Positions 17,072 to 37,054 of a stretch of 64,000 nucleotides of DNA are shown in pieces. Source of the DNA: Flavobacteriaceae bacterium (GTDB lineage Bacteria > Bacteroidota > Bacteroidia > Flavobacteriales > Flavobacteriaceae); assembly GCA_018669795.1 (NCBI GenBank), contig JABHSQ010000001.1:1-64000 (forward strand), in the 5' to 3' direction. Each line of letters begins with the position of its first letter. Positions within the stretch are counted from its first letter, which is position 1. Under the pieces are notes generated by a model that saw only the letters and a list, made by a program, of their open reading frames with translations, searched no databases and had not been told where the DNA came from. The position numbers and the translations under genes were made by a program.

Positions 17072-17422
17072 ATGAATTTTCGCTTCCCAAAATCAGAAAA
17101 ACTTAAAAGTAAAAAAAAGATAGAACTTCTTTTTGCAGAAGGAAGATCAATTAGCAAATACCCAATAAAAGTATTTTATCTTCCATCTAACAATGTAAAA
17201 AAAACACAAGCTGCTTTTGCTGTTCCTAAGCGCAATTTCAAAAGTGCGGTAGACAGAAATCGAATAAAAAGACAACTTAGAGAAGTTTATAGGCTTCAAA
17301 AACATTTGTTAAAAAACGAGGGTGAACTAAAGTTTAGTTTATTCTTTTTATACATTGGTAATGAAATATTACCATATTCCAAAATTGAAACATCACTTAA
17401 GTTTCTGATTAATAAAATATAA
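17072..17422 (+). CDS. rnpA: Ribonuclease P protein component
   Basis: The protein subunit of RNase P, which helps the RNA subunit mature tRNA 5' ends. The 116-residue basic protein shows the family signature AAFAVPKRNFKSAVDRNR followed by IKRQLREVYR (about residues 48-75), including the RNR motif that contacts RNA. The N terminus has the typical FPKSEKLKSKKKIELLFAEG. The S41 peptidase starts one base after its stop codon, so the two are co-transcribed. rpmH is not adjacent, unlike in many other phyla. Confidence 0.95.
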   Translation: MNFRFPKSEKLKSKKKIELLFAEGRSISKYPIKVFYLPSNNVKKTQAAFAVPKRNFKSAVDRNRIKRQLREVYRLQKHLLKNEGELKFSLFFLYIGNEILPYSKIETSLKFLINKI

Positions 17423-20394: not shown

Positions 20395-20826
20395 TTAAGA
20401 ACAAGTTATTTTATCAACCCTTGTTTGATGTCTTCCTCCTTCAAATTTAGTGTTTAAGAAAACATCAACCATAGCTAGTACCTGGGGAATACTTGTGTAA
20501 CGCGCTGGTATGCTTAAAATATTTGCATTGTTATGAAGTCTAGCTAATTCGGTAAGTTCTTTGTTCCAACAAAGTGCAGCTCTTACTTCTTTATGTTTAT
20601 TTGCAGTCATTGCAGCGCCATTTCCAGAGCCACAAATAATTATACCTAAGTCAACTTTATTTGTGGCTACATCGTTAGCCACAGGGTGAATAAAGTCTGG
20701 ATAATCTACACTGTCTTTAGTATCTGTTCCATAATTTGAAACAATTATTCCTTTAGATTCTAAAAATGTTATAATTGCTTCTTTATATGCTGGTCCAGCA
20801 TGATCATTTCCAATAGCTATTTTCAT
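20395..20826 (-). CDS. rpiB: Ribose-5-phosphate isomerase B
   Basis: Interconverts ribose 5-phosphate and ribulose 5-phosphate in the pentose phosphate pathway. The 143-residue protein is normal length for RpiB/LacAB. Visible signatures are IGNDHAGPAYKE at the N terminus, VDYPDFIHPVA (about 40-50), the active-site cysteine and anion-binding loop in IICGSGNGAAMTANK (about 63-77), and RHQTRVDKI near the C terminus. It is transcribed away from the very AT-rich 662-base gap upstream. Confidence 0.95.
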   Translation of the reverse strand: MKIAIGNDHAGPAYKEAIITFLESKGIIVSNYGTDTKDSVDYPDFIHPVANDVATNKVDLGIIICGSGNGAAMTANKHKEVRAALCWNKELTELARLHNNANILSIPARYTSIPQVLAMVDVFLNTKFEGGRHQTRVDKITCS

Positions 20827-21488
20827 TTCTTTAAATATTTTTATTTAACAAATCAAGCGTTGTTTATTGTTAATTATTCTTTTAAGATGTAAAAAGTTAT
20901 ATTTTATTTTATAATAATTATTCTAAATAAAAGCTTTAGTTACAATTAAGTTTATTAAAGCAAATATATTGTATAAATTTAATAAACAGAGGCTTAATAA
21001 GACGTTTTAAGTTTTAAAATATTATCAACTATTTAAAAAAAACTTATCTTTTTTAATAGTTAATAAAGTGTTTATAGCTGTTCATTCTTTTTATAAAAAT
21101 TAATTAGGATGGTAAATAAAAAATAATAGTAGCAATTTTTATTTTAATTAACCAAAAAAGTTAAACTTAAATTATATAAAAGTTATCTTATAAATAAGGT
21201 GTTTTTTAAACTTTATAAATAAAAATACTTATAAAAATTATTATTAAATTAAAGAAGTTAACAATGGTTAATAGAGACTACTATCTAACTCAATTTCAGT
21301 TAAAAAAGCGATTAATATACTGTTGATATCTTACTAAGAAAACAATTTAACTTAATATCAAAATAAATAATCTAAAACTTATTGTAGTTATTAACAAGCA
21401 ATTATAACCATCATTTTATATTTAAATTTAATTAAAAAAAAGGATATTATATAATAGTTGTTAATAACGTTTATTTTAGGCCTAGATT
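20827..21488. other. 662-base extremely AT-rich intergenic region, origin candidate
   Basis: Sampled 60-base lines have only about 12-15% G+C, well below flanking genes. No open frame of gene length exists. Inverted copies of TTATTAACA lie at 21388-21396 (plus) and 21459-21467 (minus), with near matches around 20866 and, just outside, 21788; these differ at two positions from the DnaA box TTATCCACA. No exact DnaA box is present. It could be a replication origin or unwinding region, a long regulatory region, or simply drift. Confidence 0.3.
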
Positions 21489-21728
21489 TTAAACAATTTC
21501 TAAAACAATATCGTTATTTAAATCAGTTATAATTTTTACAGCCATGTCTTTATCATTTTTATTTACTTGAAGTCTAATTCCGCCAAAAGCATTAGAATGG
21601 AAAGGAAGAATAGTAATAGCGGTTTCATTTAAAAAAAAATAATTAATATTTTTTTGTTGAAGTAATAATTCTATAATGACATATTCACTAGGATAGTTAA
21701 ATCTTGCTATGGTTATAAAATCTTTCAT
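21489..21728 (-). CDS. DUF2007-family small protein
   Basis: A 79-residue protein whose layout matches DUF2007 (putative signal-transducing protein): an N-terminal FITIARFNYPSEYVIIELLLQ segment resembling the family's 'tfs.peA..ak..Le..GI' pattern, then a strand pair and GIRLQVNKNDKDMAVKII. By analogy it resembles the C-terminal regulatory module of ACT-like folds, but no role is established. It diverges from rnr 114 bases away and borders the AT-rich gap. Confidence 0.7.
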   Translation of the reverse strand: MKDFITIARFNYPSEYVIIELLLQQKNINYFFLNETAITILPFHSNAFGGIRLQVNKNDKDMAVKIITDLNNDIVLEIV

Positions 21729-21842
21729 GATTAATAAAAATTAATTTAATTAAGTATTTTTATAAAGGTAATTAATAATAACAGTTTGTTAATACTAATA
21801 CAAAAATTTAAAGCTTACTTTTACCTTAATTAAAATTAAAAA

Positions 21843-24062
21843 ATGTCGAAAAGAAATAAGAGTAGAAAGAAACCAAACAATTCCAATCTTACCCAAAGTA
21901 TACTTACTACTTTAAGAAAACAAAATTCAAAACCTACTAATTATAAACAGGTTGCATCTATTTTAGATGTCAATGATACTACAACAAGAAATTTAATTAT
22001 TAAAATCCTAAAAAAACTTCAATCTGAAGAAAAAATAGAAGAAATTTCTAGAGGAAAATATATAATAAAAGCATCAAAAAATTATTATACAGGAATAGCT
22101 GATGTCACATCTAAGGGTCAAGCTTATATTATTGTAGATGGTTTAGAAGATGATATTTTTATTAACAATAAAAACTTAAATCATACCTTAAATGGTGATA
22201 CCGTTGAGGTATATGTTTTTAAAAGAAAAAAAGGAGGAAAACAAGAAGGAGAAGTTACGCAAATAATAGAGCGAAAAAGAAAAGAATTTGTTGGAGTTAT
22301 AAAAATACAAGAACGTTTTGCTTTTGTGGAATGTCAAGATGTTAAAATGTACACCGATATTTTTATTCCAAAAGAGAACATTAACAATGCTAAAGATGGA
22401 GAAAAAGTATTAGTAGAAATTGAAAGCTGGCCAGAAAAAGCGGGATCCCCTTATGGTAATGTAATTAAGGTATTAGGAAAACCCGGAGAACATAATACAG
22501 AAATCCATTCCATCTTAGCTCAATATGGGCTGCCATATGAGTTTGAAAAAGAAATTGAAGATTTTGCAAACAATATAGACACTTCAATTAATAAAGAAGA
22601 AATTAAAAAACGCCGTGACATGCGGTCTGATTTAACATTTACGATAGATCCAAAAGATGCAAAAGATTTTGATGATGCTTTATCATTTAAAGTATTAAAA
22701 GAGGATATTTATGAAATAGGAATTCACATCGCAGATGTATCTCATTATTTAATTCCAGGAACTATTTTAGATAATGAAGCTTTTGATAGAGCAACCTCTG
22801 TTTATTTAGTAGATAGAGTAGTGCCAATGCTACCTGAAGTACTATCAAACAATGCTTGTTCATTAAGACCTAATGAAGAAAAATTTACTTTTTCAGCTGT
22901 TTTTAAAATAAATAAAAAAGCTGAAATAATAGATAAATGGTTCGGTAGAACAGTTATTTATAGTGATGCGCGTTTTGCATACGAAGAAGCACAATATGTA
23001 ATTGAAAACGAACTATTAAAAAAACAACAAACGGTTACTATACCTTCAGAAATATCCATCACAGGAAAAACATACGAGGTTAAATCTAAAATCACCGAAG
23101 CAATCCTTAAATTAGATAAATTAGCTAAAATTCTTCGTAAAATAAGAATGAAAGAAGGCGCTATTTCTTTTGATAAAGTAGAGGTTAAATTTAATTTAGA
23201 TGAAAGCAACAATCCTGCAGGAGTTTATTTTAAAGAAAGTAAAGATGCTAATAAATTAATAGAAGAGTTTATGCTTCTTGCCAATAGAAGTGTTGCCGAG
23301 TTTATTGGAAAACAAAACCCTAAAAAAACATTTATTTATCGTGTTCATGATGAACCTAACGATGAAAAAATTGCTGCTTTACAAAATATTATAAAACAGT
23401 TTGGTTATAAACTAGATATCCGTGATCGAAAATCAACTTCCAACTCTTTAAATAATTTATTAAAAGATGTTCAAGGAAAAAAAGAACAAAATTTAATAGA
23501 TACGCTTGCGATACGCTCTATGAGTAAAGCTGTTTATACTACACAAAATATTAGGCATTATGGATTAGCCTTTGATTATTATACTCATTTTACCTCACCT
23601 ATTCGTCGATATCCAGACATCATGGTACATCGATTATTAAATTATTATTTAGAAGAAGGTAAATCCGCAAACGAAGATCAATACGAACAAAAATGTAGAC
23701 ACAGTAGTGAAATGGAAGGATTAGCTTCACAAGCAGAACGCGCAAGTATAAAATACATGCAAGTTAAATATATGTCCGACCACCAAGATCAAAATTTCTT
23801 AGGAGTAATATCTGGTGTAACAGATTGGGGCATTTATATAGAGATTGTTTCTAATAAATGTGAAGGAATGGTGCGCTTACAAGATATAAAAGGAGATCAT
23901 TATACGTTTCATAAAGATGAATATGCTGCAATAGGAGATCGCACAAAAACTAATTATCAGCTTGGAGATGAAGTTTATGTTCGTGTAAAAAACGCAGATT
24001 TAGTGAGAAAACAATTAGATTTTGAAATGTTAGGTCATAAAACGGACCTTGTAATTAATTAA
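21843..24062 (+). CDS. rnr: Ribonuclease R
   Basis: A processive 3'-5' exoribonuclease that degrades structured RNA (739 residues). Order of domains: an N-terminal helix-turn-helix-like segment (about 15-70), two cold-shock domains (about 75-215), the RNB catalytic domain beginning near 255 with FTIDPKDAKDFDDALS, which carries the metal-binding aspartates, and a C-terminal S1 domain (about 650-725, FLGVISGVTDWGIYIEI). The lysine-rich N terminus (MSKRNKSRKKPNN) suits RNA binding. The gene runs rightward from the AT-rich region. Confidence 0.96.
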   Translation: MSKRNKSRKKPNNSNLTQSILTTLRKQNSKPTNYKQVASILDVNDTTTRNLIIKILKKLQSEEKIEEISRGKYIIKASKNYYTGIADVTSKGQAYIIVDGLEDDIFINNKNLNHTLNGDTVEVYVFKRKKGGKQEGEVTQIIERKRKEFVGVIKIQERFAFVECQDVKMYTDIFIPKENINNAKDGEKVLVEIESWPEKAGSPYGNVIKVLGKPGEHNTEIHSILAQYGLPYEFEKEIEDFANNIDTSINKEEIKKRRDMRSDLTFTIDPKDAKDFDDALSFKVLKEDIYEIGIHIADVSHYLIPGTILDNEAFDRATSVYLVDRVVPMLPEVLSNNACSLRPNEEKFTFSAVFKINKKAEIIDKWFGRTVIYSDARFAYEEAQYVIENELLKKQQTVTIPSEISITGKTYEVKSKITEAILKLDKLAKILRKIRMKEGAISFDKVEVKFNLDESNNPAGVYFKESKDANKLIEEFMLLANRSVAEFIGKQNPKKTFIYRVHDEPNDEKIAALQNIIKQFGYKLDIRDRKSTSNSLNNLLKDVQGKKEQNLIDTLAIRSMSKAVYTTQNIRHYGLAFDYYTHFTSPIRRYPDIMVHRLLNYYLEEGKSANEDQYEQKCRHSSEMEGLASQAERASIKYMQVKYMSDHQDQNFLGVISGVTDWGIYIEIVSNKCEGMVRLQDIKGDHYTFHKDEYAAIGDRTKTNYQLGDEVYVRVKNADLVRKQLDFEMLGHKTDLVIN

Positions 24063-33200: not shown

Positions 33201-33622
33201 ATGAAGAAGATTTAAACGGTAAACTATTCGAAATATTTAAAGAACAACAAATGCTTCGTCAACAATTACAAGATAAAACAAATCAACTTGGCAATAAAGG
33301 AAACGCTGGAAATTTAGTTCGTGAAATGGAAAATATCGAACAACAGTTATTAGAGAAAGGTTTTGATCAAAATACATTAGAGAAAATGCAAAACCTTCAG
33401 CATGAATTATTAAAATTAGACAAAGCTACTTTCGAACAAGGCCAAGAAATGAAACGGGAGTCTAAAACAAACCGCAAGAGCTTTGAAAACAATGTTAGCG
33501 CTAGTTCAGAAGATATTAAAAAGTATTTCAACACTACCGAAATTTTAAATCGAGAGGCGCTACCTTTGCGGCTAGAATACAAACAAAAAGTGCAAGAATA
33601 TTTTAAGAATAAAGATGATTGA
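30233..33622 (+). CDS. DUF4175-family large membrane protein
   Basis: A 1129-residue protein with two N-terminal helices (about 22-75) and a third near 148-165, then a periplasmic beta-rich region to about 500. Residues about 500-790 are an almost continuous Lys/Glu/Gln-rich coiled coil. A conserved block follows (LRQILDNLVVFSFEQEDLM, near 790), then low-complexity KGKGKG and GEGEGEG tracts (about 915-985) and a helical C terminus. It resembles the DUF4175 proteins widespread in Bacteroidota; function is not established. Its end overlaps the ybeY start by eight bases, implying translational coupling. Confidence 0.8.
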   Translation: MSSFSMIQKKLEQFIKKYYTSELIKGTILFFAIGLLYLIITLLIEYYLWLNPFGRTILFWTFVLVETALFVRFITMPLLKLFNIQQGITNEEASKLIGNHFPEVSDKLLNVIQLNQNQRESELLLASIDQKSSDLQLIPFKTAISFKTNNKYLKYAAIPIIIFLLFIALGKKDIFSSSYKRVVNYNTAYEPPAPFAFQVLNNSLTAIENKSYTLKIKTVGVYAPKNASISFNDETYYLKQFAPGVFEYTFLQPINPIDFSLKANKVSSKEYTLDVIKTPSLVNFKMKLDYPSYTGKKDEILESSGNALVPQGTKVTWDISTKNTEEVNLKTKDSSYMFTVIKDAETGSIGPDRIYRYQKGIYNKLDYTITTSNKNLKEYENLSFTLGVIRDEYPEIKVASKQDSTDSQKMYFLGNVSDDYGLTQLQLVYYPSLEEDNKQNLLLKLKATNFDQFVYDFPGNLLLTDGISYDYYFEVFDNDAIHNYKSSKSAIYSFRKLTQNEIENEQLQNQNKTIVGLDKSLGNMKQQDKTLEEISKNQKETNELNWNDKKKLEKFLKKQKQQEEMMKKFSKKLKESLENFQPENKEKDSFKEQLKERFQENEEQLKKNEKLLDELEKLQDKIKKEALTENLEKLSKQNKNQEKNLEQLVELTKRYYVSKKAEKLTEELNKLAEKQEKLANAPEEENTKEAQEELSKKFEEYTKEKEELQKDNKDLKEPMNIPDDKKGEEEVKEEQEKASDNLDKGAQKEASKSQKKAAQKMRKMGQQMQMQMQSGQMETLKEDLEMLRQILDNLVVFSFEQEDLMEEFKITDYGSPLFGKKLIKQNDLKLNFQHVDDSLFALSLRQPKLGGKINESLTDVTYNLDKSLERLAENEIRKGVSSQRYTFTGANELAVLLSDILGGMQDEMSIPRKGKGKGKGKGKGEGQGFQLPDIIKKQEGLNKKMKEGLGKKGEKGKESKGEGEGEGEGSGENGKNGKDGKQKGKEGYGNEEDLNGKLFEIFKEQQMLRQQLQDKTNQLGNKGNAGNLVREMENIEQQLLEKGFDQNTLEKMQNLQHELLKLDKATFEQGQEMKRESKTNRKSFENNVSASSEDIKKYFNTTEILNREALPLRLEYKQKVQEYFKNKDD
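32969..33008 (+). repeat. Short tandem repeat encoding Lys-Gly
   Basis: Six-base units of the form AAAGGA/GGAAAA repeat about six times inside the DUF4175 gene and encode the KGKGKG tract. This is a slippage-prone, in-frame repeat; copy-number change would alter the linker length only. Confidence 0.6.
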
Positions 33623-34031
33623 TTTTTTTTCAGAGACCCCATTTAATCTGCAAAATTCAGAAGAAGTTGCTGGCTGGATATCTGCTATTATTTCAAACGA
33701 AAATTTTGAGGAGGGAGAAGTAAGTTATATTTTTTGTGATGATGAATACCTCCATAAGTTAAACCTAGAATTTTTAGAACACGATACGTTAACCGATATT
33801 ATTAGTTTTGACAATAGTTTAGGAAACCAGATCAATGGGGATATTTTTATTTCAGTAGAACGAGTTAAAGAAAATGCCAATTCATTTAATGCCTCTTTTG
33901 AAAATGAATTACATCGTGTAATTATTCATGGTATTTTACACTATTGTGGTTATAAAGATAAAACCAAAAAAGACGCTGACTTAATGAGAAGCAAAGAAGA
34001 TGCAGCGCTTTCCCAAAGAATTTTTTTATAG
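33615..34031 (+). CDS. ybeY: rRNA maturation endoribonuclease YbeY
   Basis: A 138-residue single-strand endoribonuclease acting in 16S rRNA maturation and ribosome quality control. It shows VSYIFCDDEYLHKLNLEFLEHDTLTDIISF, typical of the family, and the zinc motif HGILHYCGYKD (about 109-119). The first two His ligands are present, but the third position is Asp where most phyla have His (GYDH). I believe the GYKD form is common in Bacteroidota. It overlaps the preceding gene by eight bases and precedes mnmG. Confidence 0.92.
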   Translation: MIDFFSETPFNLQNSEEVAGWISAIISNENFEEGEVSYIFCDDEYLHKLNLEFLEHDTLTDIISFDNSLGNQINGDIFISVERVKENANSFNASFENELHRVIIHGILHYCGYKDKTKKDADLMRSKEDAALSQRIFL

Positions 34032-34086
34032 TTTACTGAAAATCAATTTAATACGATTTTAACAAACTGATTGTAAGTTATTTAAC

Positions 34087-34094
34087 TATATTTG
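34087..34094 (+). promoter_or_regulatory. -7 element (TATATTTG) upstream of mnmG
   Basis: An exact TAnnTTTG match 141 bases before mnmG. The left parS site lies between this element and the start codon, so ParB bound there would sit in the transcribed leader. Confidence 0.45.
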
Positions 34095-34138
34095 CACGCT
34101 CTTGCAAAACCAAGACCATCATTAATTTTTAAAAACAA

Positions 34139-34154
34139 TGTTCCACGTGAAACA
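34139..34154 (+). other. parS: parS site, left
   Basis: TGTTCCACGTGAAACA is an exact match to the 16-bp ParB (Spo0J) binding consensus TGTTNCACGTGAAACA. It lies in the 204-base ybeY-mnmG spacer. parS sites are centromere-like: ParB loads here, spreads, and works with ParA and SMC to segregate origin regions. No parA or parB gene lies in the window. Confidence 0.93.
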
Positions 34155-34235
34155 TTTATAACTAAATTTTAATTAAAAATAAATAATTTATATGGATGTT
34201 CTGTGCGACCAAACATATAAAACAAACTAAATACT

Positions 34236-36107
34236 ATGTTTCCAAACGAATATGATGTTATAGTTGTTGGTGCTGGACATGCTGGCTCCGAAGCGGCGTC
34301 TGCAGCGGCTAATTTAGGGTCAAAAACATTGTTGATTACAATGAACTTGCAAAATATCGCACAGATGTCTTGTAATCCTGCTATGGGTGGAATTGCGAAA
34401 GGTCAAATTATTCGTGAAATTGATGCATTAGGAGGATATAGCGGAATTGTTTCTGATGAAACGGCTATACAATTTAAAATGCTAAACAAGTCTAAAGGGC
34501 CCGCAATGTGGAGTCCTCGAGTTCAAAGTGACCGTATGCGTTTCTCAGAAACGTGGCGGGATATGATGGAAAAAACTCAAAATCTTGATTTTTATCAAGA
34601 AATGGTTTCTGGTCTGTTAATAGAAAACGGAAAAGTTATTGGAGTTAAAACATCGCTGGGAATTGAAATAAGATCCAAATCGGTTGTATTAACTAACGGT
34701 ACTTTTTTAAACGGGATTATACATATTGGAGACAAACAATTTGGTGGAGGTAGAGCAAGTGAAAGAGCTTCAACAGGTATTACTGAAGACCTATTAAATT
34801 ATGGGTTTGAATCTGGAAGAATGAAAACAGGAACTCCTCCTAGAGTTGATGGGCGCTCTTTAGATTTTTCAAAAATGACAGAACAACCTGGCGACGAGCA
34901 ACCAGAAAAATTCTCCTACTTAAAGTCTACCAAACCACTAACCAACCAGCGATTGTGTTATATGTCTTACACGAGCGAAACTGTTCATGAATTACTTAAA
35001 GAAGGCTTCGATAAATCACCGATGTTTAATGGCGCTATTAAAAGTAGTGGACCAAGGTATTGCCCTTCAATTGAAGAAAAAATAAATCGATTTGCAGATA
35101 AAGACAGGCATCAACTATTTGTAGAGCCAGAAGGTTGGAACACGGTAGAATACTATATCAACGGTTTTTCTACATCGCTATCTGAAGACATTCAGTTTAA
35201 AGCATTACAACAAGTAGCCGGTTTTGAAAATGTAAAGTTTTTTAGACATGGATACGCTATTGAATATGATTATTTTCAGCCAACACAATTAAGACATACA
35301 CTAGAAACAAAATTAGTTGCTGGATTATATTTTGCTGGTCAAATAAACGGAACTACTGGATATGAAGAAGCAGCATCTCAAGGTTTAATGGCGGGAATAA
35401 ATGCCCATTTAAAAGTGCATGAAAAAGACCCGTTTACATTAAAGAGAGATGAAGCTTATATTGGAGTATTAATAGATGATTTGATTACTAAAGGAACAAA
35501 AGAACCTTATAGAATGTTTACTTCTAGAGCAGAATATAGAACCTTATTAAGGCAAGATAATGCTGATTTTAGATTAACATCTAAGTCTTATGATATTGGA
35601 TTAGCTTCAAAAGAACGCCTAGAGACTATGGAACAAAAGGAAAGAGAATCTCATGCTTTTATTCATTTTTTTAAAAATAAGAGCATCAGTCATGAGATTT
35701 TAAATCCAATTCTAGAAGCAAAAGATTCTGCTACAGTAAAGCAAATGGATAAACTATACAAACCTTTTTCTCGTCCAAATATTACGATGGATGATATGCG
35801 AAAAATAAAAGAGGTGGATGATTACATTTTAGAAAATAACTTAGATAGAGAAGTTTTAGAGCAAACCGAAATTCAGATCAAATATGCTGGTTATATAGAT
35901 AAAGAAAGATTAAATGCTGATAAATTAAATCGATTAGAAGGTATAAGAATACCTGAAAATTTCGATTATTCAAAGTTAAAATCTCTTTCTTATGAAGCTT
36001 TAGAAAAACTAAGAGCAGTGAAACCTGTAACGGTTTCACAGGCTTCTAGAATCAGTGGAGTTTCTCCAAATGACATCTCTGTATTATTAGTTTATATGGG
36101 ACGTTAA
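34236..36107 (+). CDS. mnmG: tRNA uridine-5-carboxymethylaminomethyl synthase, MnmG subunit
   Basis: The FAD-containing partner of MnmE that modifies the wobble uridine (U34) of several tRNAs. At 623 residues it is normal length. The FAD-binding VVGAGHAGSEAA is at residues 10-21; family signatures MSCNPAMGGIAKGQI, RMKTGTPPRVDG and FAGQINGTTGYEEAASQG are all present, and the C-terminal helical domain interacts with MnmE. It is flanked on both sides by perfect parS sites. In many bacteria mnmG (gidA) lies close to the origin with parA/parB; those partners are not here. Confidence 0.97.
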   Translation: MFPNEYDVIVVGAGHAGSEAASAAANLGSKTLLITMNLQNIAQMSCNPAMGGIAKGQIIREIDALGGYSGIVSDETAIQFKMLNKSKGPAMWSPRVQSDRMRFSETWRDMMEKTQNLDFYQEMVSGLLIENGKVIGVKTSLGIEIRSKSVVLTNGTFLNGIIHIGDKQFGGGRASERASTGITEDLLNYGFESGRMKTGTPPRVDGRSLDFSKMTEQPGDEQPEKFSYLKSTKPLTNQRLCYMSYTSETVHELLKEGFDKSPMFNGAIKSSGPRYCPSIEEKINRFADKDRHQLFVEPEGWNTVEYYINGFSTSLSEDIQFKALQQVAGFENVKFFRHGYAIEYDYFQPTQLRHTLETKLVAGLYFAGQINGTTGYEEAASQGLMAGINAHLKVHEKDPFTLKRDEAYIGVLIDDLITKGTKEPYRMFTSRAEYRTLLRQDNADFRLTSKSYDIGLASKERLETMEQKERESHAFIHFFKNKSISHEILNPILEAKDSATVKQMDKLYKPFSRPNITMDDMRKIKEVDDYILENNLDREVLEQTEIQIKYAGYIDKERLNADKLNRLEGIRIPENFDYSKLKSLSYEALEKLRAVKPVTVSQASRISGVSPNDISVLLVYMGR

Positions 36108-36157
36108 TCATATTTTTTCACACACAGAGGCATCCAAATTAATAACTTAGTTATAGA

Positions 36158-36173
36158 TGTTTCACGTGGAACA
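36158..36173 (-). other. parS: parS site, right
   Basis: The plus strand reads TGTTTCACGTGGAACA, the exact reverse complement of the left site, so the two are inverted copies about 2.0 kb apart. It lies in the 98-base spacer between mnmG and the methyltransferase gene. Two perfect 16-mers in one window cannot reasonably be chance. Confidence 0.93.
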
Positions 36174-36205
36174 ACTGATTTTACGCAAAAAATCATCATC
36201 ATAAA

Positions 36206-37054
36206 ATGAAGCTACAAAAAGAAAATTTTCCGCTAAGGGTTAAAGATTATTTAGTAACCAATGAAGAGTTTACTTTAATTTATGATTCGGAAAAGGAAAT
36301 GCTTCTAACCAATCCTCAGCCAGAAGCAAACCAACTTTCTAAATATTACGAGAGTGATGATTATATTTCTCATACCGATAACAAGAAAGGGATTGTTTCC
36401 TTTTTATATCAATCTGTAAAAAAAAGAGCCTTACAGCATAAATTAAATTTAATCACTTCATTAAAAAAAGACGCTAATAACATTCTTGATATTGGTGCAG
36501 GAACAGGGGACTTTTTAAAACATATTAAATCTGAAAACAGATCTATTTTTGGAATAGAGCCCAATAAAAAAGCAAGAGCATTAGCTTCTAAAAAAGGAAT
36601 CAATTTAGAAGAAAGTATAGCGGATTTTAAAGGAAAAACTTTTGATGTAATTACTATGTGGCATGTCTTAGAGCACGTGCCTAATTTAGATGAAACCATT
36701 CAAAAGATAGAAGCCTTATTAAATTCAAATGGAGTATTAATAATAGCTCTTCCAAACTACAATTCGTTTGATGCTGCTTATTACAAAAATTATTGGGCAG
36801 CTTTTGATGCTCCACGCCATTTATGGCATTTTTCTAGAAACGCGATGAAGAAGATTTTTTCTAATAATCTTATGCTTCTAAAAACGAAACCAATGATTTT
36901 TGATTCGTTTTACGTAAGTCTTCTTTCTGAAAAAAATAAAACAGGGAAACAAAATTTAATAAAAGCGTTTCTTATTGGGTTGCAATCTAATCTTTCAGCT
37001 TTGAAAACTAAAGAGTATTCTTCTCTAGTTTATTGTTATAAAAAACGAAAATAA
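36206..37054 (+). CDS. Class I SAM-dependent methyltransferase
   Basis: A 282-residue protein. The N-terminal 80 residues resemble the substrate region of Methyltransf_23-type proteins (MLLTNPQPEANQLSKYYESDDYISH). SAM-binding motif I is ILDIGAGTGDFL (about 92-103), and the conserved MWHVLEHVPNLDE lies near 152-164. A later YWAAFDAPRHLWHFS segment is shared by many methyltransferases acting on ubiquinone-like or sugar substrates. The specific substrate is not evident. It follows the right parS site. The 242-base gap downstream to the convergent delta'-like gene holds nothing I can name. Confidence 0.82.
   Translation: MKLQKENFPLRVKDYLVTNEEFTLIYDSEKEMLLTNPQPEANQLSKYYESDDYISHTDNKKGIVSFLYQSVKKRALQHKLNLITSLKKDANNILDIGAGTGDFLKHIKSENRSIFGIEPNKKARALASKKGINLEESIADFKGKTFDVITMWHVLEHVPNLDETIQKIEALLNSNGVLIIALPNYNSFDAAYYKNYWAAFDAPRHLWHFSRNAMKKIFSNNLMLLKTKPMIFDSFYVSLLSEKNKTGKQNLIKAFLIGLQSNLSALKTKEYSSLVYCYKKRK

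Follow-up and report, generated by a model that had tools for sequence, protein, structure and literature searches.

Genes for the partition proteins ParA and ParB usually lie near the chromosomal replication origin (oriC), although this proximity is not required. In Pseudomonas aeruginosa, parAB lies ~7 kb from oriC, according to the passages of one study (PMC3909081). The passages of a second describe oriC as commonly far from dnaA in Bacteroidetes, drawing on DoriC and on Prevotella intermedia (PMC4755523), and excerpts of a Hi-C study of gut Bacteroidetes define the origin by the parS cluster together with skew, with dnaA no systematic marker (PMC10197239). Here we analyze two parS sites, the 16-bp elements recognized by ParB, that bracket the mnmG (gidA) gene in a 64,000-nucleotide stretch of a Flavobacteriaceae bacterium draft genome (assembly GCA_018669795.1, contig JABHSQ010000001.1, positions 1 to 64,000; hereafter the window). 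Very probably, the pair forms the centromere of a standard ParABS system in a split layout, belonging to an origin neighborhood whose most likely oriC is the spacer between rpiB and rnr.

Two exact parS sites flank mnmG

The left parS site (34139–34154, + strand, TGTTCCACGTGAAACA) lies in what is probably the mnmG leader, 81 bp 5′ of the ATG, and the right site (36158–36173, + strand, TGTTTCACGTGGAACA) lies 50 bp 3′ of the mnmG stop codon. Both match the 16-bp parS consensus TGTTNCACGTGNAACA exactly. Alone between them stands mnmG (34236–36107, + strand; TIGR00136, 821 bits against a cut-off of 525), which encodes a tRNA uridine-5-carboxymethylaminomethyl(34) synthesis enzyme. The left site occupies the spacer between mnmG and its upstream neighbor ybeY (33615–34031, + strand; TIGR00043), and the right site the spacer before the downstream neighbor, an S-adenosylmethionine-dependent methyltransferase-like gene (36206–37054, + strand) with UbiG/MetW/BioC-like matches, all below curated cut-offs. 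A preliminary description of this DNA had reported two perfect parS sites flanking mnmG, both intergenic and enclosing no other gene, and the sequence bears this out: both 16-mers are exact, ybeY ends at 34031 and the next gene starts at 36206. Its further remark that the pair is inverted is true of the letters and carries little information, parS being an imperfect palindrome. Among 116 exact sites beside mnmG in the 80 loci described below, palindromy is perfect in 76, and the other 40 are asymmetric, facing both directions; because parS is near-palindromic and both directions occur, the inverted pair is one of several states, with no evident function.

The window holds no further parS match even at up to two mismatches, where shuffles predict 0.15. 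Across the whole draft assembly (2.25 Mb in 28 contigs) the scan returned three exact sites, none at one mismatch and six at two mismatches; the reversed pattern, used as a control, gave 0 exact matches and 8 at up to two mismatches, and the six are therefore background. The third exact 16-mer, on contig C3 (L172, 9820–9835), lies inside rpsN, between the L5 and S8 genes, and is probably fortuitous because the S14 codons for FGVSRVTFRE spell it; we rejected it as part of the parS system. Exact 16-mers are thus not scattered over the genome, numbering three in all, one of them coding-driven. With 0.006 exact sites expected from genome composition, and with recurrence at the same place in relatives, the probability that the sites are chance matches is negligible.

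Because the sites are palindromic, and the downstream one often starts no more than 11 bp past the stop codon, they might instead be RNA elements of the mnmG transcript, a leader hairpin and a terminator. This is very improbable: in 24 of the 116 exact sites a C/A combination disrupts the RNA stem, the window sites fold no better than shuffles (z of 0.13 and −0.24), a terminator scan of 33950–36300 returned nothing at either site, and the letters match the ParB consensus exactly.

The source genome encodes both partition proteins. A search with HTH_ParB found a single ParB, on contig C6, with the domains ParB_N, HTH_ParB and ParB_C and with an AAA_31/CbiA ParA-type ATPase encoded directly upstream (L171). 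Its best solved relatives are ParB/Spo0J chains, with Noc chains a close second, and it retains the GERRYRA box, which we take to be CTP-binding. dnaA is on contig C15, so that parA, parB and dnaA all lie outside the window, as described earlier.

The bracket in Flavobacteriaceae and beyond

Followed into relatives, the parS pair around mnmG proves to be kept in Flavobacteriaceae and beyond. With one genome per genus, 132 of 149 Flavobacteriaceae genomes carry between one and three exact sites, and none of the 149 contains the reversed pattern; in the wider phylum, an exact site occurs in 57 of 75 genomes, with a single reversed-pattern match in one of the 75. Site positions from these two scans are those among the matches listed. 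We then scanned 22 closed Flavobacteriaceae genomes at up to one mismatch and detected mnmG in 21, of which 20 have parS beside mnmG and 17 have it on both sides, the sites falling within ~140 bp of the mnmG match ends. Every exact site in the 22 genomes adjoins mnmG, except three in genome G023 that lie near rnr. The mnmG search gave no match in G123 and five other Flavobacteriaceae genomes.

A set of named mnmG loci, the best 80 of at least 592 matching stretches, gave the same picture when sites were counted within 300 bp of mnmG at up to one mismatch: parS lies upstream in 75 loci, downstream in 68, on both sides in 67 and on either side in 76, against 0 reversed-pattern matches in 1.58 Mb. 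These loci include Olleya, Bizionia, Winogradskyella, Salinimicrobium, Maribacter, Flavobacterium, Dokdonia and Chryseobacterium; those of Fluviicola and Roseivirga have upstream parS only. ybeY lies at most 500 bp upstream of mnmG on the same strand in 76 of the 80, and a methyltransferase-like gene at most 500 bp downstream in 59. To look outside the family, we hand-picked 20 loci spanning 19 families from the 75 genomes, after the parS list had been seen; 14 have parS within 300 bp of mnmG at the same threshold, four of them on both sides.

The sites also sit tightly against the gene. The end of the site falls 5–60 bp ahead of the ATG for 71 of 102 upstream sites, and its start falls no more than 11 bp past the stop for 44 of 69 downstream sites; in 17 of 74 loci, TAnnTTTG, presumably the Bacteroidota-type −7 promoter element, lies 17–70 bp before the first site. 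Such placement would suit a bracket that is mainly regulatory, in which ParB at the leader and past the stop tunes mnmG and so couples tRNA modification to the segregation cycle. We regard this as improbable: 57 of the 74 loci have no TAnnTTTG at that distance, and mnmG can do without the sites, since that of G023 is siteless and lies ~280 kb from the parS near rnr and the methyltransferase gene. Moreover, ParA and ParB of P. aeruginosa had no effect on the predicted gidA promoter in E. coli, an unpublished result cited in the passages of PMC3909081. The earlier suggestion that ParB spreading might influence mnmG expression is a weak part of that description. In the window, TAnnTTTG occurs at 34087–34094 (+ strand; offset −149 from the mnmG ATG), 5′ of the left parS, as a weak hit that is a consensus match only.

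Several loci carry additional parS-like sequences. A further site, with one mismatch, recurs in several genera on the downstream side of mnmG: at +6.4 to +7.4 kb, counted from the start of the gene, in L183, L185, L186, L188, L194 and L196, and 6–9 kb downstream, as TGTTTCACGTGGAAGA, in the closed genomes G059, G040 and G068. L195, from Flavobacterium sp. MC2016-06, has an expanded array, with nine more parS-like sites between −1189 and −312 from the mnmG start.

In closed relatives the origin lies on the mnmG side of the chromosome

In closed Flavobacteriaceae genomes, dnaA lies 20–47% of the chromosome away from mnmG, and in 21 closed relatives parB lies 21–41% away. We used the direction of 16S genes to choose between these landmarks, ribosomal RNA normally being read outward from the origin. 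Among the matches listed for the 19 closed genomes with both mnmG and 16S hits, all 46 16S genes are directed away from mnmG, compared with 3 of 46 for dnaA and 13 of 46 for parB; random origins score a mean of 23.1 and a maximum of 41 in 5000 draws. At most 11 candidates were scored per genome, so that the 46 are no full census, and none were found in G071 or G118; chromosome lengths were rounded to 100 kb except in three genomes, extra fragments of one 16S gene were left uncounted, and G123, having no mnmG match, was excluded. Because the genomes share ancestry, the 46 genes are not 46 independent tests. The direction of the 16S genes fixes the side of the chromosome that holds the origin, not the point. 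dnaA and parB were both rejected as origin markers on these counts. The start coordinate lies within 130 bases of dnaA in 7 of the 22 closed Flavobacteriaceae genomes.

Other families show both arrangements of dnaA and mnmG: the two genes are ~7–55 kb apart in G198, G209, G219, G176, G150 and G151, and ~150 kb or more apart in G153, G189, G205, G211, G155 and G179, as in G203, a member of the Flavobacteriaceae. On a simple reading, oriC, dnaA, mnmG and parS would formerly have been together, and dnaA would then have left in Flavobacteriaceae.

A candidate oriC between rpiB and rnr

Within this side of the chromosome, skew narrows the position. In 10-kb bins, third-position skew of G025 reverses at the divergent rpiB/rnr spacer, and that of G014 reverses on the rnr side, within ~10 kb of the spacer; these are the two genomes used to locate the candidate spacer. 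rnr lies 7–56 kb from mnmG in 21/22 closed genomes with mnmG. We sampled 10–30 kb on both flanks of rnr in another 18 closed genomes (G014, G025, G023, G078 and G100 excluded); in 17 of them, the rnr side exceeds the rpiB side in third-position skew.

In the window, the candidate oriC is the 1016-bp divergent rpiB/rnr spacer (20827–21842, unstranded), which has 17% G+C and lies 12–15 kb from the bracket. Its left border is rpiB, of the ribose/galactose isomerase family (20395–20826, − strand; PF02502), and its right border is rnr, encoding RNase R (21843–24062, + strand; PF00773, PF17876, PF08206, PF00575). We obtained the corresponding spacer from 21 of 24 sequences, omitting G059, G121 and G023 for want of rpiB within 2.5 kb. 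Unbiased k-mer counting of these spacers ranked TTATTAACA and GTTATTAACA with the most strongly enriched words: the 9-mer TTATTAACA has 38 copies in the 21 spacers against 2.5 in shuffles, and the 10-mer GTTATTAACA has 25 against 0.2. The density of GTTATTAACA is 1.21/kb in rpiB/rnr spacers compared with 0.12/kb in AT-rich control spacers, and the word is absent from the mnmG spacers of the 80 loci. The window has just two copies of this DnaA-box-like 10-mer, at 21387–21396 (+ strand) and 21459–21468 (− strand), both inside the spacer. Of 21 further named loci with an rnr match, five have no rpiB in the locus and seven have rpiB on the same strand; the nine divergent spacers, which took no part in motif discovery, contain TTATTAACA in seven cases, with 16 copies in ~8.8 kb (three are Tenacibaculum). 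From these sequence features, oriC probably lies inside the window at 20827–21842, with putative variant DnaA boxes.

An origin at the mnmG spacers themselves, with the rpiB/rnr spacer merely an AT-rich promoter region, is the placement that published predictions would favor. The passages on Mariniflexile litorale give an Ori-Finder oriC adjacent to mnmG in the text, with a figure legend that labels oriC and ter in reverse (PMC11278836), those on Algorimicrobium give the Ori-Finder oriC as mnmG (PMC12843772), and the skew bottom of G014 lies between the rpiB/rnr spacer and mnmG. We nevertheless find this placement unlikely. Neither TTATTAACA nor TTATTCACA occurs in 23.7 kb of upstream and 16.0 kb of downstream mnmG spacer from the 80 loci. 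Furthermore, five closed genomes separate rnr from mnmG by 31–56 kb (G032, G061, G071, G125 and G142), and in four of them third-position skew is positive 10–30 kb past rnr; a positive value so soon after rnr favors a switch there over one at mnmG.

The inference, made earlier, that the window is near oriC despite having no dnaA, parA or parB is thus supported by 16S direction and by third-position skew in most closed relatives, in which parS clustering near the origin is also seen; G078 and G023 disagree by skew. It holds against the refuting outcomes named there: a ParB is present, exact sites do not scatter, and the sites around mnmG are conserved. The skew part of that check stands in part: third-position skew puts the origin 7–56 kb from mnmG in most closed relatives, while the window is uninformative and G078 and G023 are ~0.1–0.3 Mb off.

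The DnaA of the source genome ends in KRDHATVLHACK followed by ~35 residues, a motif that we take to be close to the E. coli DnaA signature GRDHTTVLHAC. Canonical-type DnaA boxes, tried in six variants as an oriC marker, were rejected, with no cluster of at least three per 400 bp in ~220 kb of G025 or 200 kb of G014. The Tenacibaculum loci L220 and L227 are siteless at mnmG and have an rpiB/rnr spacer carrying TTATTAACA copies ~8 kb away; T. soleae (L222) has sites.

Two further features of the window deserve mention. rnpA, the RNase P protein gene (17072–17422, + strand; PF00825), lies 3.4 kb from the candidate oriC. This gene adjoins oriC in many bacteria, and its presence here is perhaps a remnant of the classic origin neighborhood; no rpmH-like frame was found in the 190 bp 5′ of rnpA. 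Between 50000 and 62000, G+C falls to 0.22–0.28 over ~12 kb, below most of the window, and this stretch possibly holds acquired or surface-polysaccharide genes.

Observations that weigh against the proposed layout

A number of results run counter to a parS bracket at mnmG with oriC at the rpiB/rnr spacer. Four of the 80 named loci have no site within 300 bp of mnmG at up to one mismatch, namely L220 (Tenacibaculum discolor), L227 (T. aiptasiae), L240 (a Capnocytophaga metagenome-assembled genome, MAG) and L248 (a Bacteroidia MAG), and the same is true of 6 of the 20 loci outside the family. Near rnr, the third-position signal is matched by GC skew in no more than 15 of 18 genomes and by coding-strand bias in 12 of 18. 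The window itself has no third-position switch at 20827–21842 (+0.05 to the left, −0.02 to the right), and G078 has none at rnr, its coarse skew minimum lying ~0.2–0.3 Mb off. The window spacer contains no canonical TTATCCACA box, and TTATTAACA is absent upstream of rnr in seven Chryseobacterium/Kaistella loci, where rpiB is non-divergent. We take Elizabethkingia to be a relative of these two genera. Its oriC was predicted with near-canonical boxes in the passages of PMC8994065. Because the Chryseobacterium/Kaistella loci are motif-free with a non-divergent rpiB, and because the Elizabethkingia prediction is near-canonical, the rpiB/rnr origin may be absent from that branch.

The most pointed exception is G023. 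Its three exact sites lie 3–5 kb past the rnr end, around a relative of the methyltransferase gene that follows mnmG in other genomes; rpiB does not adjoin rnr, and mnmG, ~280 kb from the three sites, has no site of its own (loci L059, 9143–10781, and L061). parS and mnmG can therefore separate. Along the rnr/parS stretch, third-position skew is −0.14 in one half and −0.16 in the other; it reaches approximately zero at 1.12 Mb and is positive where mnmG lies, so that the turn falls between ~1.12 and 1.27 Mb. From these values, the skew origin of G023 appears to lie between parS and mnmG, ~0.1–0.3 Mb from parS, and neither rnr nor parS is at the skew origin. The idea that parS had stayed with the origin in this genome was dropped, the skew being negative on both halves of the stretch. 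A rearrangement near the origin would explain the layout.

G023 also bears on a stronger proposal, in which the centromere is locked to the gene across Bacteroidota: selection beyond segregation would keep parS at both mnmG ends, and ParB clamps enclosing mnmG would tie its expression, or the 2-kb ParB domain, to origin copying. The ParA, ParB and DnaA genes would then be free to drift, and G023 would be a secondary escape. We consider this proposal unlikely.

Discussion

Our results are best accommodated by a standard ParABS system whose centromere and origin have kept company with mnmG. ParB, encoded elsewhere together with ParA, would load at both sites as a cytidine triphosphate (CTP)-dependent clamp and spread across mnmG and its neighbors, and ParA would move the ParB complex such that newly copied origins separate. 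The bracket would lie beside mnmG because mnmG belongs to the origin neighborhood. DnaA would open the AT-rich rpiB/rnr spacer at variant boxes resembling TTATTAACA; dnaA and parAB lie far off in Flavobacteriaceae, and mnmG and parS would have stayed. We infer that ParB binding, clamp loading and spreading, DnaA binding and origin firing take place at the predicted sites, and that the source genome follows its closed relatives in origin layout. Together, these elements outline a centromere and origin map for Flavobacteriaceae that is independent of dnaA, with parS at mnmG and a candidate oriC between rpiB and rnr, and they present the Flavobacteriaceae as a family with a centromere unlinked from its partition genes. 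We found no report of the parS–mnmG bracket, its spread or an rpiB/rnr origin in open-licence PMC texts.

Set beside earlier origin assignments, the present map agrees in its neighborhood and differs in its evidence. As in the passages on Mariniflexile (PMC11278836) and Algorimicrobium (PMC12843772), the mnmG neighborhood is predicted as oriC; parS at mnmG, the rpiB/rnr spacer and the variant box, in contrast to what those passages contain, come from the present analysis. Unlike such predictions, the origin side was assigned here from 16S direction in 19 closed genomes and from skew around rnr in 18, partly the same. In gut Bacteroidetes, too, parS marks the origin according to the available excerpts (PMC10197239), and the gene context of the sites is added here.

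The locus resembles the ParABS systems of Bacillus subtilis, Caulobacter and Pseudomonas: the 16-bp site is the same, ParB has the same three Pfam domains and is encoded next to a ParA-type ATPase, and the sites are few, clustered and, in relatives, on the origin side. It departs from them in that parB of Flavobacteriaceae lies 21–41% of the chromosome from mnmG and in that the site pair is locked to the mnmG ends. The mechanism is that of an ordinary ParABS system; the layout is a variant.

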